The translations under genes were made by a program, and so were the position numbers. A stretch of 23,998 nucleotides of DNA from a virus. Position 1 is the stretch's first letter. Every line of letters begins with the position of its first letter. Shown here one piece after another: positions 19,640 through 23,998 of this stretch. Location of the stretch: positions 1-23,998 of IMG/VR virus record IMGVR_UViG_3300027969_000419; one strand, 5' to 3'. Under the pieces are notes generated by a model. It was not told the origin of the DNA and did not search any database. It saw only the letters and a list, made by a program, of their open reading frames with translations.

Positions 19640-19990
19640 TTACTTTCTAAGTTGCGCCAGTATCTTGTTGGCCTGGCGGTCGCTCATGTCACCTAATTGA
19701 CGGTGCAATGCTATACGCCGATCCATTGACGATGGTGGTGTCGGTGGACGGCTTTCCATTTTCTCGTTACCCACCTCAAAGCAATTGTGGCGCTTAAGAT
19801 GTTCACGATGATGAGATCGGCTGGTAATCATGCTACCATCGACCATGCTTTGATATGGCTCAATGTCCCTAATGACTTGCGGGCCTGATTCGGTTTCTTG
19901 CCCGTAATCATCACGCATAAAAACGACTTCATCATTTTCAATTTCGTATAGCAACCCGCGTGAATCATATATTGCGCGATACCTAGCCAT
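19640..19990 (-). CDS. Small basic protein between portal and scaffold, unknown function
   Basis: The start is set at the ATG at 19990, 1 base after the portal stop; the longer frame reaching 20083 lies within portal. The 116-aa product is MARYRAIYDSRG followed by an acidic stretch and the motif DIEPYQSMVDGSMITSRSHH, then REHLKRHNCFEVGN. Similar Gly-Ser-Arg-Ser and REHLKRH motifs occur in small proteins encoded after portal genes in other podoviruses; these are sometimes labelled FmdB-like, but the Cys pattern of a zinc ribbon is absent here (one Cys). The C-terminal half is helical and basic. Function not known. Confidence 0.75.
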   Translation of the reverse strand: MARYRAIYDSRGLLYEIENDEVVFMRDDYGQETESGPQVIRDIEPYQSMVDGSMITSRSHHREHLKRHNCFEVGNEKMESRPPTPPSSMDRRIALHRQLGDMSDRQANKILAQLRK

Positions 19991-19991
19991 C

Positions 19992-22064
19992 TTAAAATTG
20001 TTGTCCTTGTGAATTCTGGTTGGCAGAAATTTGAGCAATTGCAATTTTGGTCGTTGCATCAAGTTCGGCTTTGAACTTTTCAAATTGTTCCTTGGCCGCT
20101 AATTCTTGAAGCTTAATCTGACCTTCATACTGTTGCTTTTGTAACTCAATTTGACCCGCCGCTTGAGCCTTCATCTGCTCAATTTGCATGTTGGTTTGGG
20201 CACGCATTTGTTCAATCTGCATGTCAGCCTGAATCTGGGCCTGTGCGGCCTGTTGCTCGGCTTGCATCTTAATCTGTTCAGGAGACGGTTGTGGAGGCTG
20301 TTGCTGGGCCTTCAGCGCACCCTGTTCAAACTGTTGCAAGGCAACGTCAATGGTGCCCTCAATGGCCGCAGCCTGTTTAAAACCGCCAACGCCAAAGCGC
20401 ATCATTTCCATGATCATTGGCACCATTTCAGGAGCCTGTTGACCCATTGGCAATGCCTCACGCAGAAAATTAGAGAACGCATTAAGGAAGTCCATGCGGT
20501 CCTGCTTAGTTTGCGTCTCGTCAAGCTGCACTAAGCTATCGGCAGCAACCTCAATTCGGAAAGCCCGCAAGGGCGAGTTTTGCAGCAGTTGCAGGGCTTG
20601 CGGAATCATTTGTTGATCCGCCTGGCTCATTTGAGCCGCGCCCGCATATTCAAGGATGGTTTGCGGTTGGAACTTGGTGCAAATGATTTGCGCCTTCATA
20701 CGCAGGAGTTCACTTGCAAACATGGCAACGCCGTCTTGCATGGCGCGTAGACGCAGACCCGCATACTGGCCCTTGATCTGTTGGGCCGTAGCAGTTTCGG
20801 ACGCTGCGGTTTGGCCCCGGATAATATCAGAAATACCCGTGATTTCGTAGATTTGGCCCTTGATCTGGGATTGCGCTTGGTAGCATTGGATTAGCACCGC
20901 AGCCAGCGTATCAATGGGCAAAAGGTCAATAGCGCCCTTAAGCCCGCCTTTTTCGCTAAACGCCATCCATTTATCAACGGGAATAAGCGTATTGTTGTCG
21001 CCCTCGGTCAAAAGGCGTTGTAGGGCAGGTTGGCTAGCATCGTACACGCCGCGCACGCGTAGGGCCTTTACAAGGCCGTCAATGCGGTCTGTAAGAATGT
21101 CCAGTTCGTTTGCCTGATCTTGGTAAAGCACAAAGTCGGCAACGGGGATAAGCGTATCGCTAGTTGTTGTGGCGTAAAGTGGCTTAGGACATGGAAAGAA
21201 GTTTTCCAATTCTAGCGGATCTTCACGCTCGTCGATAATGTCTGGATAGCTTTCGGAAAGCCAATAGACCTTTTGCGTTTCTTTGTCCCAAAGTTCGCAA
21301 ATCCGAGCGCGGTCATTATTCTTGCTGTTTTGGCCAGATTTGCTTAGGGTTTCAGGTGAACTATCAAACGGCATCTTTTTGGCAATTTCTTCGCCAAAGC
21401 GTTCCGTAAGGGCATCTTTGGTCATATAGACCCAGCGCCATACGCAAGTTACTTCTTCCCAAGTCCGCGCCGTGGAATGGCCAAAATCTTTCCAATGAAC
21501 ATAATCAGCAGGAGAACACTCATATTCAATCTCCTCGGGAACCTCCTGCATAGCCGCTGTATGGTCTTGCGGATAAAGCGGTGATTGCCCAGCGCCCTCG
21601 GCGGATTCGCCTTCCTCAACGTCCTCAGTGATCTGGTAGCCGTCTTCAGGAACGTCCTGTTTACGGATATGCGGATCATAACGCACCCAAGCCGTACCGC
21701 GACCGCCAAGGAACCGATCCTCGACTGCGTTCTTCATAGCCGAACGGAAATCGGAATAATGTTCAATCTCGTAATCAAGCGCCCGCTCAACCAACAGCGC
21801 CGCAACCCGGCCTACGGGATCATTGTCGCTAAAGCGCCTGGCCACTGACGCCTTGGGCATACGGGCATAAACCGCAGGGACAAGCGTCTGCACATTGGAC
21901 CAAAGGATGTTGAACTTGGCCGTCTCATTGCCAGACGCGCTGCGCGTATCATCCCGGTACCGCCGAATGATCTTTGTGGATCGCTCGCACCACTTCTTAA
22001 ACTCGTTGTCATATGTATGAATGACACCAAGATATTTTTGCAAAGTAGAGGTTGGAGGAAGCAT
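19992..22064 (-). CDS. Portal protein (P22-like) with long C-terminal hendecad helix
   Basis: The 690-aa product is close in length to the P22 portal (725 aa). N-terminal markers are CERSTKIIRRYRDD and AKFNILWSNVQTLVPAVYAR. The wing contains acidic and Trp-rich stretches (YECSPADYVHWKDFGHSTAR, WEEVTCVWRWVYM). The stem/clip zone includes LYQDQANELDILTDRIDGLV, and EITGISDIIRGQTAASETATAQQIKGQYAGLR is a classic portal signature at about residues 400-430. The last 80 residues form a Gln/Met-rich helix with an 11-residue repeat, suggesting a helical barrel extending into the capsid. A good AAGGA ribosome site precedes the ATG. It forms the dodecameric DNA gate of the head. Confidence 0.92.
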   Translation of the reverse strand: MLPPTSTLQKYLGVIHTYDNEFKKWCERSTKIIRRYRDDTRSASGNETAKFNILWSNVQTLVPAVYARMPKASVARRFSDNDPVGRVAALLVERALDYEIEHYSDFRSAMKNAVEDRFLGGRGTAWVRYDPHIRKQDVPEDGYQITEDVEEGESAEGAGQSPLYPQDHTAAMQEVPEEIEYECSPADYVHWKDFGHSTARTWEEVTCVWRWVYMTKDALTERFGEEIAKKMPFDSSPETLSKSGQNSKNNDRARICELWDKETQKVYWLSESYPDIIDEREDPLELENFFPCPKPLYATTTSDTLIPVADFVLYQDQANELDILTDRIDGLVKALRVRGVYDASQPALQRLLTEGDNNTLIPVDKWMAFSEKGGLKGAIDLLPIDTLAAVLIQCYQAQSQIKGQIYEITGISDIIRGQTAASETATAQQIKGQYAGLRLRAMQDGVAMFASELLRMKAQIICTKFQPQTILEYAGAAQMSQADQQMIPQALQLLQNSPLRAFRIEVAADSLVQLDETQTKQDRMDFLNAFSNFLREALPMGQQAPEMVPMIMEMMRFGVGGFKQAAAIEGTIDVALQQFEQGALKAQQQPPQPSPEQIKMQAEQQAAQAQIQADMQIEQMRAQTNMQIEQMKAQAAGQIELQKQQYEGQIKLQELAAKEQFEKFKAELDATTKIAIAQISANQNSQGQQF
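20058..20222 (-). repeat. Five tandem 11-residue units in the portal C-terminus
   Basis: Residues 615-669 of the portal read as consecutive 11-mers: MQIEQMRAQTN, MQIEQMKAQAA, GQIELQKQQYE, GQIKLQELAAK, EQFEKFKAELD. Hydrophobic and Gln positions recur in register. Eleven-residue (hendecad) periodicity predicts a straight or slightly right-handed coiled coil. Confidence 0.75.
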
Positions 22065-22076
22065 TTAACTTTTCCT

Positions 22077-22337
22077 TTAGGCCCAAACGCGCCAGGGGGT
22101 TACAGGAGACGTTTGCAGGGCCGCTAGGGCCTCTGGTGCTTCATCCGCATAGATGAGCCTTAGGTTGACAAAATAGCCACGCTCGGTGCTGTCAGCGGGC
22201 GAAGGGCCAACCCTATCAATTAGAATGCTTGAATTAACGGGATTTAATTCACCGTCAAAATCTTCAAACAATTCCGACGCCAACAATGCCGCGTCCATCT
22301 TGGCCTTACTGGTGGCTTTTAGATAAAGGTCGATCAT
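22077..22337 (-). CDS. Small phage protein between fibre and portal genes, unknown function
   Basis: The 86-aa product (MIDLYLKATSKAKMDAALLA start, TPWRVWA end) resembles small uncharacterised phage proteins encoded next to tail fibre genes, with a mixed alpha/beta pattern and an internal NLRLIYADEAPEALAAL. It starts by an ATGA overlap with the fibre gene and ends 12 bases before portal, whose ribosome site lies in that gap. It has no enzymatic motif. A fibre-associated or head-assembly role is possible but not shown. Confidence 0.7.
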   Translation of the reverse strand: MIDLYLKATSKAKMDAALLASELFEDFDGELNPVNSSILIDRVGPSPADSTERGYFVNLRLIYADEAPEALAALQTSPVTPWRVWA

Positions 22338-23998
22338 GCTGTTATCGCCTGTAATAAAGTGTTCGTAAGGCGGGTGTTGTAGTAGGAAATGGATTTGATA
22401 TGGTTGGATGTATAGTTTGCGGCTAGCAAACGATCATCCGCACCAATGTTCAATTGGGTCAGTGAAACAGGCAATGCTCCGCTTGTAATTGAAGTGCCCA
22501 AAACGCCATTGCGTGAGGCCGCAAAGTCATTGACCGCATAGGCAGTAGCAATCCTGTTTACTGCCCCGACTGTGCCAATTGCAGTCAAGCCTATTGTTGC
22601 AACAGCTGTGCCACCAGAATAATAAACAGCCCGCATGTTTCCGGTGTCGTTATCAATATGCAAAGAGTTTTGCGTAATTGTTCCGTTAGACGCAGACACA
22701 TATGTTGCATTACTATTAGCCGAAGCATCAAACGAAACCGCAAGAGTGCCGGTGGTTTGGTTGTACCAATTGGAGAAGTTATTGCCTACCATTGTAGCAA
22801 CGTCAGCCGAGCGGGTAACAGATGCGCCTACAGTAGGAATATGCGATGTTGCAAATCCACCCGCTTCAACTTGTGCGCCATATACATAACCGCCTAAACC
22901 TGTTGAGACAGGAGTGTAGGTAGCATTAAAAGTTGTTACTGAAGCTGGTTTAAATGACGCTGAAAAAACATAGTTTCCAGAAGTTATAAGCGAAGTTGCA
23001 GTAACTGTACAACGATACCAGCCATTACCGACAGGTGTAATGGTAGCGGTTGAACTACCACCAGTAACAACTACTGTTCCATTTGCTAAATCAAACAAAG
23101 CGCCTGTGGCGGTTAAAAAGGATGTGTTTTCAAAATTAATTTGAGCGCGGGTATATTCGCCCGCTTTTAAATATGCTGAACCACAATATGTTGTACTTAC
23201 GGCTCCAGTATAAAGTTTAAAAATTGCATATCCACGATCTGCAAGAGTGGCATCATTAGTAGTAAGTTTTGTGGCATTAGTTGTTCCATCGGGACTGATA
23301 GCAGAATTTGCTGTTATAGCTACTATGCTAGCAGGAGACATGGACCAACCAGTCACATCCGATGGGTACATCAGGTTTGTTCGTGCTTCCTCAATCAGTA
23401 AACCCAATGGCGCAAGCGTGGTGGGGCTATAATCAAACCGTGGGCCGTAATAGGCCGTTGATGTCAGGGCTGCGGCTGGGTTATAGACATACGGGTCCAC
23501 TGACGCGCTATCAGACAGTTGAGCGCCCCAAACAAGAACGCCGTCGGTGCCGTTGCCCGCCCAACCAAATTGATTGTTGGCGCTTTGTGCATAAATATCA
23601 CCCGACAAAACAGCAGTGCTGGATGCGGCCCGAGTTACGGAACAACGAAACCAACCATTGCCAACATTTTCAATAGTGTTGTTTAACATTGTTCCGGTAC
23701 CGCCAATTGTACCATTTAGAACATCAAAGAATGTATACCCGCCGCCCGCTGCGCTTCCAAAACTTAAACGAATAAAATTATATCCGTCTGCTTTGGCGTA
23801 AACAGAAAAATTATAAATGATACCAGATTGAACCGTTCCAATACCTGCGCCGACTGAGTGATCCGCGCTTGTCGTATTTGGTATCAATTTGTCAGCAGTA
23901 GTTGTGCCATTAGGCGCTACAGATGTATTAGCGCTAATGGTAAGATTAGTTTTTCCCCAAGCCGCATTATTAAATTCTTCGGTAAAGCCAAGCAGGTT
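22334..23998 (-). CDS. Tail fibre/adhesin with two carbohydrate-binding-like modules and lectin-like end (5' end outside window)
   Basis: The frame is open to the window edge, so at least 554 residues are encoded and the true start is missing. Two related modules are visible. The first opens NLLGFTEEFNNAAWGKTN and includes NFSVYAKADG, VGNGWFRCSVT and VWGAQLSD. The second opens EEARTNLMYPSDVTGWS and includes YLKAGEYTRAQINF, VGNGWYRCTVT and VYGAQVEAG, closing with HIPTVGASVTRSADV. This pairing is typical of carbohydrate-binding modules in phage fibres. The final ~140 residues (GTLAVSFDASANS to YYNTRLTNTLL) look like a LamG/concanavalin-type lectin domain. It probably binds a surface polysaccharide. 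The order fibre before portal is unusual. Confidence 0.82.
   Translation of the reverse strand, partial: NLLGFTEEFNNAAWGKTNLTISANTSVAPNGTTTADKLIPNTTSADHSVGAGIGTVQSGIIYNFSVYAKADGYNFIRLSFGSAAGGGYTFFDVLNGTIGGTGTMLNNTIENVGNGWFRCSVTRAASSTAVLSGDIYAQSANNQFGWAGNGTDGVLVWGAQLSDSASVDPYVYNPAAALTSTAYYGPRFDYSPTTLAPLGLLIEEARTNLMYPSDVTGWSMSPASIVAITANSAISPDGTTNATKLTTNDATLADRGYAIFKLYTGAVSTTYCGSAYLKAGEYTRAQINFENTSFLTATGALFDLANGTVVVTGGSSTATITPVGNGWYRCTVTATSLITSGNYVFSASFKPASVTTFNATYTPVSTGLGGYVYGAQVEAGGFATSHIPTVGASVTRSADVATMVGNNFSNWYNQTTGTLAVSFDASANSNATYVSASNGTITQNSLHIDNDTGNMRAVYYSGGTAVATIGLTAIGTVGAVNRIATAYAVNDFAASRNGVLGTSITSGALPVSLTQLNIGADDRLLAANYTSNHIKSISYYNTRLTNTLLQAITA

Follow-up and report, generated by a model that had tools for sequence, protein, structure and literature searches.

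The stretch analyzed here (referred to as the window) is an IMG/VR virus record of 23,998 nt, in which a repeat-bearing open reading frame (ORF) of 690 amino acids (aa) lies at positions 19992 to 22064 on the minus strand. In a profile search, the ORF product matched PHROG 12082 (portal protein; E value, 2.8e-189; best stretch, residues 6 to 488). A structural aligner listed 50 PDB entries for a model of this protein, of which 49 were structures of phage portals, connectors, or portal-tail complexes (best Z score, 16.4, with an rmsd of 15.2 over 340 aligned residues; another hit, Z score of 14.2 with an rmsd of 4.8 over 356 aligned residues), and a Foldseek comparison gave an E value of 1.9e-5. 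The product is thus a phage portal protein, as an earlier sequence-only reading had proposed. The model itself, an AlphaFold2 monomer built from an alignment with 53 relatives, was of low confidence (mean pLDDT, 54.0; pTM, 0.37); it aligned with the portals of P22, Sf6, and crAss001, and several other portals stood above the P22 entries in the structural listing, where rank is not evidence of distance. Pfam returned no match for 10 window proteins, including the portal, and when the portal profile was searched against PDB sequences, no portal was returned, only ATP synthase b. The features considered below are as follows.

19992 to 22064, minus strand: portal protein gene, 690 aa (ORF; PHROG 12082; phage portals at the top of the structural comparison)
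20280 to 20300, minus strand: proline-rich linker that joins the crown to the helix, residues 589 to 595, QPPQPSP (sequence)
20061 to 20282, minus strand: hendecad stave of 74 residues, from the last proline (Pro595) to Leu668, i.e., six 11-residue units plus 8 residues (lag-11 and spectral tests; 11-step length ladder)
20022 to 20282, minus strand: predicted single continuous helix, residues 595 to 681 (AlphaFold2 monomer, low confidence)
20190 to 20222, minus strand: reported unit 1, MQIEQMRAQTN (sequence)
20157 to 20189, minus strand: reported unit 2, MQIEQMKAQAA (sequence)
20124 to 20156, minus strand: reported unit 3, GQIELQKQQYE (sequence)
20091 to 20123, minus strand: reported unit 4, GQIKLQELAAK (sequence)
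20058 to 20090, minus strand: reported unit 5, EQFEKFKAELD (sequence)
19995 to 20060, minus strand: short C-terminal end, residues 669 to 690; most relatives continue for about 70 residues to an RGxDG motif (motif count)

Two neighboring ORFs are on the same strand. One of 116 aa (19640 to 19990) starts two bases past the portal stop codon; a relative of it with a DGSMITSRS motif lies downstream of the portal of a related locus (L055), and the longest ORFs just after the portals of four other loci (L005, L007, L014, and L018) differ from it. Two genes upstream of the portal, an ORF of 517 aa (22334 to 23887) matches the tail-protein family PHROG 5939; given its TTG start near the end of the record, it may be cut.

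Translation of positions 20058 to 20222 (residues 615 to 669) yields the five successive 11-residue units listed above, as the sequence-only reading had described them. Identity at lag 11 was 19/44 in this interval, a value reached by none of 4,000 shuffles (best of lags 5 to 29), and 25/63 over the whole 74-residue helix, reached by none of 20,000 shuffles (best of lags 5 to 19); the shuffles used for these and the spectral tests preserved composition. The array begins at Pro595, approximately 20 residues ahead of the reported interval, and the stave is therefore longer than first noted. Nothing comparable was found in a scan of the other 29 window ORFs (lag-7/lag-11 score of 0.49 in the portal; next best, 0.24). 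These results confirm the 11-residue period in the portal C-terminal helix. The earlier preference for a hendecad over a heptad also held, with a strong signal at lag 11 and no significant 2/7 signal in the window; a heptad reading was rejected on this ground and because helix lengths scatter modulo 7. The low-confidence model predicts residues 595 to 681 as one unbroken helix past the portal crown (block-mean pLDDT, 51 to 74 over residues 601 to 670), which agrees with the helical tail that had been proposed.

Related portals were collected in four IMG/VR searches. As at most 80 loci were kept per search, the resulting set of at least 251 loci (L002 to L252, with some contigs repeated) is a sample; together with the window, it comprised 158 sequences distinct in their last 400 residues. 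The helix was measured in 154 of these (144 with a first anchor and 10 more with a looser anchor), the remainder being three sequences at contig ends (L042, L185, and L191) and one with an early stop (L128). Among the matches listed, 149 of the 154 helix lengths were 8 or 4 modulo 11, i.e., they fell on two ladders of 11-residue steps: 63, 74, 85, or 96 residues (96 sequences) and 37, 48, 59, 70, 81, or 92 residues (53 sequences). The number on the ladders was 146 before the helix start was shifted by two residues in four sequences in which proline is followed by SAE or NLE. The five off-ladder lengths were 73, 84, 89, 99, and 99 residues. By eye, two of these helices (L134, 99 residues; L188, 73 residues) seem to include additional 7-residue segments (LEQTKMQ-like and AEQGKMQ-like), i.e., heptads within hendecads.

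On a tree of the portal cores (148 tips; parsimony with unit costs, giving one of possibly several equal reconstructions), we counted 32 changes in helix length, of which 16 were multiples of 11, 13 were at 7 or 4 modulo 11, and 3 were neither. If the changes are taken as independent, the binomial chance of 16 of 32 at 1 in 11 is 3e-9. The same count in three control regions yielded no multiple of 11 (0/25 in the proline linker, 0/49 in a loop of the N-terminal half, and 0/37 in the region after the helix). Changes of 1 to 3 residues made up 22/25, 28/49, and 13/37 of the changes in these regions, respectively, and 1/32 in the helix; the distance from IEG to the last proline of the linker ranged from 23 to 29 residues among the relatives. 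Portals with cores 97 to 99% identical had helices 11 or 22 residues apart (L199/L202, L051/L115, L044/L045/L049, and L216/L219). Helix length is thus quantized in 11-residue steps, and the number of units varies among the related portals. Length variation between strains had been suggested from the window alone, and the comparison of unit number bears it out in exact 11-residue steps between near-identical cores.

We then tabulated the helical register for the 8-modulo-11 length class only (86 unique helices out of 96 sequences). Gln occupied 55, 74, and 80% of positions at 196, 229, and 262°, i.e., within one 66° sector. The sector opposite carried K/R (89% at 33°) and D/E (59 and 62% at 65 and 98°, respectively), and hydrophobic residues or Ala were found mainly at 295 to 0° and at 131 to 164°, weakly so at 164°. 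The centers of these two hydrophobic seams lie near 328 to 330° and 149 to 151°, i.e., 177 to 181° apart as measured on the Gln side. Each unit therefore has four sectors: a Gln stripe, a seam, a charged stripe, and a second seam. In spectral terms, Gln peaked at 3/11 and hydrophobic residues at 5/11 in the related portals; the Gln peak was at a period of 3.67 residues among the relatives and 3.70 in the window. In the window alone, Gln at 3/11 and hydrophobic residues plus Ala at 5/11 were each reached by 0 of 5,000 shuffles. The latter class gave P = 0.24 at 3/11 in the window, i.e., no single hydrophobic core stripe was found there, and the hydrophobic peak near 5/11, which corresponds to two opposed seams, ruled out a one-sided amphipathic helix. 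Of the regular straight-helix pattern first envisaged, the 11-residue period stood; the hydrophobic residues form two seams and not one core. A low-complexity, Q-rich tail with a periodicity due to chance or composition has next to no probability: Q, A, M, and E are indeed abundant in the tail, but shuffles never matched the lag-11 or the Gln 3/11 signal of the window, and the Gln signal at 3/11 among the relatives was 13.1 versus a maximum of 1.31 in 200 shuffles.

A ladder of this kind could be mutational only, with 33-bp repeats gained and lost by unequal recombination or slippage in a flexible tether that tolerates any in-frame change. Units 1 and 2 of the window, which had been taken as nearly identical, share 8/11 residues but only 21/33 nucleotides; the closest relatives among the matches listed (L002 to L004; 97 to 98% identity) have the same units and the same length as the window, so there is no sign of recent growth there. 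In another relative (L005), the unit aligned to the look-alike units reads VQMEQAKMQAD. A recent duplication of these two units, as had been proposed, was rejected on the basis of the nucleotide identity. Elsewhere, adjacent 33-base stretches reached 29/33 identity in 4 of 153 relatives (L168, L159, L006, and L005), and the extra unit that separates L159 from L161 is 26/33 and 29/33 identical to its two neighbors, which, among the relatives compared, most clearly shows a unit recently gained or lost. These observations are what a mutational ladder would produce. The median best identity between neighbors was, however, merely 23/33 nucleotides, and the block missing between L219 and L216 (201/210 positions matching around the gap) is 14/33 and 19/33 identical to the stretches one and two units earlier and is no copy of them. 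The four-sector pattern is kept across units whose DNA has diverged, and the 1- to 3-residue changes common in the control regions are nearly absent from the helix. We thus regard a purely mutational ladder as improbable. For L044/L045, 170/177 positions matched around a 33-base gap; other pairs, e.g., L115/L051 (183/255), were too diverged within the helix for the gap to be placed.

Whole staves also differ between near-identical cores. L068 and L159, whose cores are 99.5% identical, have highly dissimilar staves (85 and 48 residues, respectively) that no simple insertion or deletion relates. Unlike staves (85 or 96 versus 48 residues) on cores 98 to 99.5% identical were seen for L068 versus L159, L149, and L135 and for L063 and L088 versus L168. 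The pattern resembles recombinational swapping of the entire C-terminal module. The helices of L159 and L161 (48 and 37 residues, respectively) are built of a different, purer hendecad (SEAAMKQAQI-like).

Beyond the stave, the window lineage is shortened. Of 149 near-complete sequences among the matches listed, the window being counted, 140 had the RGxDG motif in their last 60 residues, and nine lacked it (the window, L002, L003, L004, L013, L128, which has an early stop, L134, L031, and L133); the ends of L031 and L133 resemble an altered motif. No RGxDG turned up when the six reading frames of the window were searched for the pattern. The portals of the window and L002 to L004 stop 22 to 34 residues past the stave, and that of L013 stops 55 residues past it, having lost only the last part of the distal end. 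The sole distal end that we modeled, that of L055 (AlphaFold2; mean pLDDT, 55.6; pTM, 0.35), has a stave helix at residues 592 to 700, a second helix at 706 to 760, and strands at 763 to 767 and 773 to 778, and a PDB sequence search with this region returned only designed repeat proteins and two matches at an E value of 1.4. As the last 50 residues of the P22 portal are described as dispensable (PMC4992974), there is a precedent for loss of the distal end in the window lineage.

Long C-terminal helices after the crown are also found in the portals of P22 and crAss001, where they are reported to form a 12-fold tube into the capsid (PMC5290284, PMC4992974, and PMC10172136). According to PMC5290284, the P22 barrel (residues 603 to 725) is about 200 Å long in the crystal, is unfolded in solution and in the procapsid, is formed in the mature virion, and has been proposed to assemble during filling of the head with DNA; that of crAss001 is given as about 80 Å long (PMC10172136). 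In the window portal and its relatives, the C-terminal helices are probably the staves of a straight portal tube whose length evolves in 11-residue steps, and by analogy with P22, a dodecameric barrel is likely in the window portal. The helices of the portal subunits (twelve, if P22 is a guide) would stand side by side from the crown toward the capsid interior, each 11-residue unit making three helical turns and the two seams packing against the left and right neighbors. At 1.5 Å per residue, tube length would change in steps of about 16.5 Å, ranging from roughly 55 to 150 Å across the relatives (37 to 99 residues) and reaching about 110 Å in the window. Because the faces repeat exactly every 11 residues, units can be gained or lost without rotating the remainder of the stave, and length would evolve in steps. 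Length steps of exactly 11 residues suggest that the register is important throughout the helix, in keeping with a tube folded at some stage. Changes of 4 or 7 residues, which nearly keep phase, may be the source of the second ladder.

The likeness to P22 is one of architecture. The P22 barrel sequence showed neither the 11-residue period (lag 11, P = 1.0) nor a Gln stripe (Gln at 3/11, P = 0.415), whereas the window portal has 11-residue units and a Gln stripe, the lengths of its relatives step by 11, and most of these add the distal RGxDG end. The P22-like C-terminal helix of the sequence-only reading is thus retained insofar as the model places a long helix after the crown, but a shared sequence pattern is not. 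For crAss001, the comparison concerns architecture only.

Instead of a closed tube in the virion, the helices might extend as long arms or gather in small bundles to which ejection or scaffolding proteins are recruited, with the hendecad aligning a binding stripe. According to one proposal, about half of the P22 barrel lacks order in the virion and binds ejection proteins (PMC4992974), and the isolated barrel is reported to be monomeric in solution (PMC5290284). The dispensable P22 end and the loss of the distal part in the window lineage would also suit such arms. On the other hand, two opposed seams per helix suggest contact with two neighbors, an arrangement expected of large barrels or helical sheets, and binding arms would have no obvious need for 11-residue steps. 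We consider arms or bundles unlikely and retain the tube as the preferred reading.

Within a tube, one polar face would line the DNA bore, and the other would meet the packed genome and ejection proteins. We infer the lumen side and the role as a DNA conduit, and favor Gln inside and charge outside. The fuller proposal, i.e., a straight twelve-stave tube that has a Gln-lined DNA bore and whose length natural selection adjusts by whole hendecads, is put forward tentatively, as a possibility that falls somewhat short of even. The seams are 177 to 181° apart, versus 150° for an ideal dodecagon, and this geometry fixes neither the copy number nor the lumen side. The same tube could be turned over, with the charged K/E stripe inside the bore and the Gln stripe toward the packed DNA; the seam geometry is symmetric within error, and both faces fit. 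Two analogies stand against this arrangement: the outer surface of the P22 barrel is described as mildly acidic (PMC5290284), and the lumen of the phiX174 H tube is reported to be mostly amide and guanidinium (PMC7354561). A turned-over tube therefore appears rather doubtful, though a serious competitor to the orientation with Gln inside.

The phiX174 H protein forms a decameric helical DNA tube with hendecads, in which 18 of 23 inward positions are N, Q, or R, and friction between tube and DNA has been suggested (PMC7354561). Gln is the commonest inward residue of that tube (PMC7354561), and one face of the stave in our relatives is 55 to 80% Gln in the register table. In the best rotation, Q1, E3, Q8, and D/E10 of the phiX174 hendecad fell on the Q, E, Q, and D/E registers found here. 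Against column permutations, the match of the phiX174 H hendecads to the register profile had P = 0.16, so there is a likeness of design at most; kinship was dropped, and we claim no sequence relation. The H tube also differs in being a decamer with three hendecads followed by heptads that spans the cell wall and delivers single-stranded DNA. Rotary ATPase stalk subunits are hendecad coiled coils, and weak sequence matches were obtained to V-ATPase subunit G (E values, 2.3 and 8.8) and ATP synthase subunit b (E value, 0.0069). On a repetitive, Q-rich helix, such matches are taken to reflect pattern and not descent, and kinship with either subunit was likewise dropped; unlike in hendecad coiled coils, hydrophobic residues here form two seams and no single core. 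A hendecad portal barrel was not found in the literature searched, which included few subscription papers.

The pattern reaches unevenly into more distant relatives. We analyzed six of ten distant phage matches (H4, H5, H7, and H10 being outside the set), and the P values for individual sequences are nominal and uncorrected. Lag 11 was significant in two of the six (a Bradyrhizobium phage and Stenotrophomonas phage BUCT555) and insignificant in Mx9, ctMlz233 (lag 7 instead), RHph_I3_18, and Ruegeria phage 45A6. The Gln stripe at 3/11 was significant in five (Bradyrhizobium phage, BUCT555, ctMlz233, RHph_I3_18, and Mx9; P < 0.05, uncorrected), while the two-seam signal at 5/11 was significant in Mx9 only, of five phage relatives tested. 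The weakness of the two-seam signal in these phages slightly lowers our confidence in the barrel-stave explanation. In the Bradyrhizobium phage (ppBjS10J-1; L253), the portal match runs across two annotated ORFs with a gap, and the second ORF contains the hendecad tail.

Among 11 relatives on genome contigs, 10 were read; L264, whose match does not extend past residue 380, was left out. Lag 11 was significant, uncorrected, in 4 of the 10 (L260, L261, L262, and L266) and insignificant in L263 (P = 0.084), L265, L267, L268, L269, and L270; the highest-scoring lag was 7 in L262, L263, and L267. Helix lengths could be read in three (92, 77, and 74 residues), of which the 77 of L262 is off both ladders. 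For L268, L269, L270, and Ruegeria phage 45A6, the tail piece was the longest proline-free stretch, which looks unlike the stave. Five of the contigs (L260 to L264; 52 to 73% identity) are in metagenome bins labeled Lysobacterales, Paludibacter, Chloroflexota, Acidithiobacillales, and Nitrosomonadales, and these scattered labels suggest misbinned phage contigs.

In our best reading, a hendecad-built portal barrel is a variant on the known P22/crAss001-type barrel. The stave of the window portal offers a clear natural case of two opposed hydrophobic seams in an exact hendecad register. Both the state of the P22 barrel in the virion, a folded tube or for the most part disordered, and the role of its length are under debate (PMC4992974 and PMC5290284). 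Near-identical portals that differ by one or two units provide matched pairs for this question of folding and length, and the repeat rule indicates which length changes should preserve function. If the proposed tube is correct, the 11-residue steps would be evolutionary evidence for a barrel folded at some functional stage, a point disputed for P22, and the relatives would form a natural length series for what barrel length sets, e.g., docking of ejection proteins, headful sensing, or drag on the DNA.
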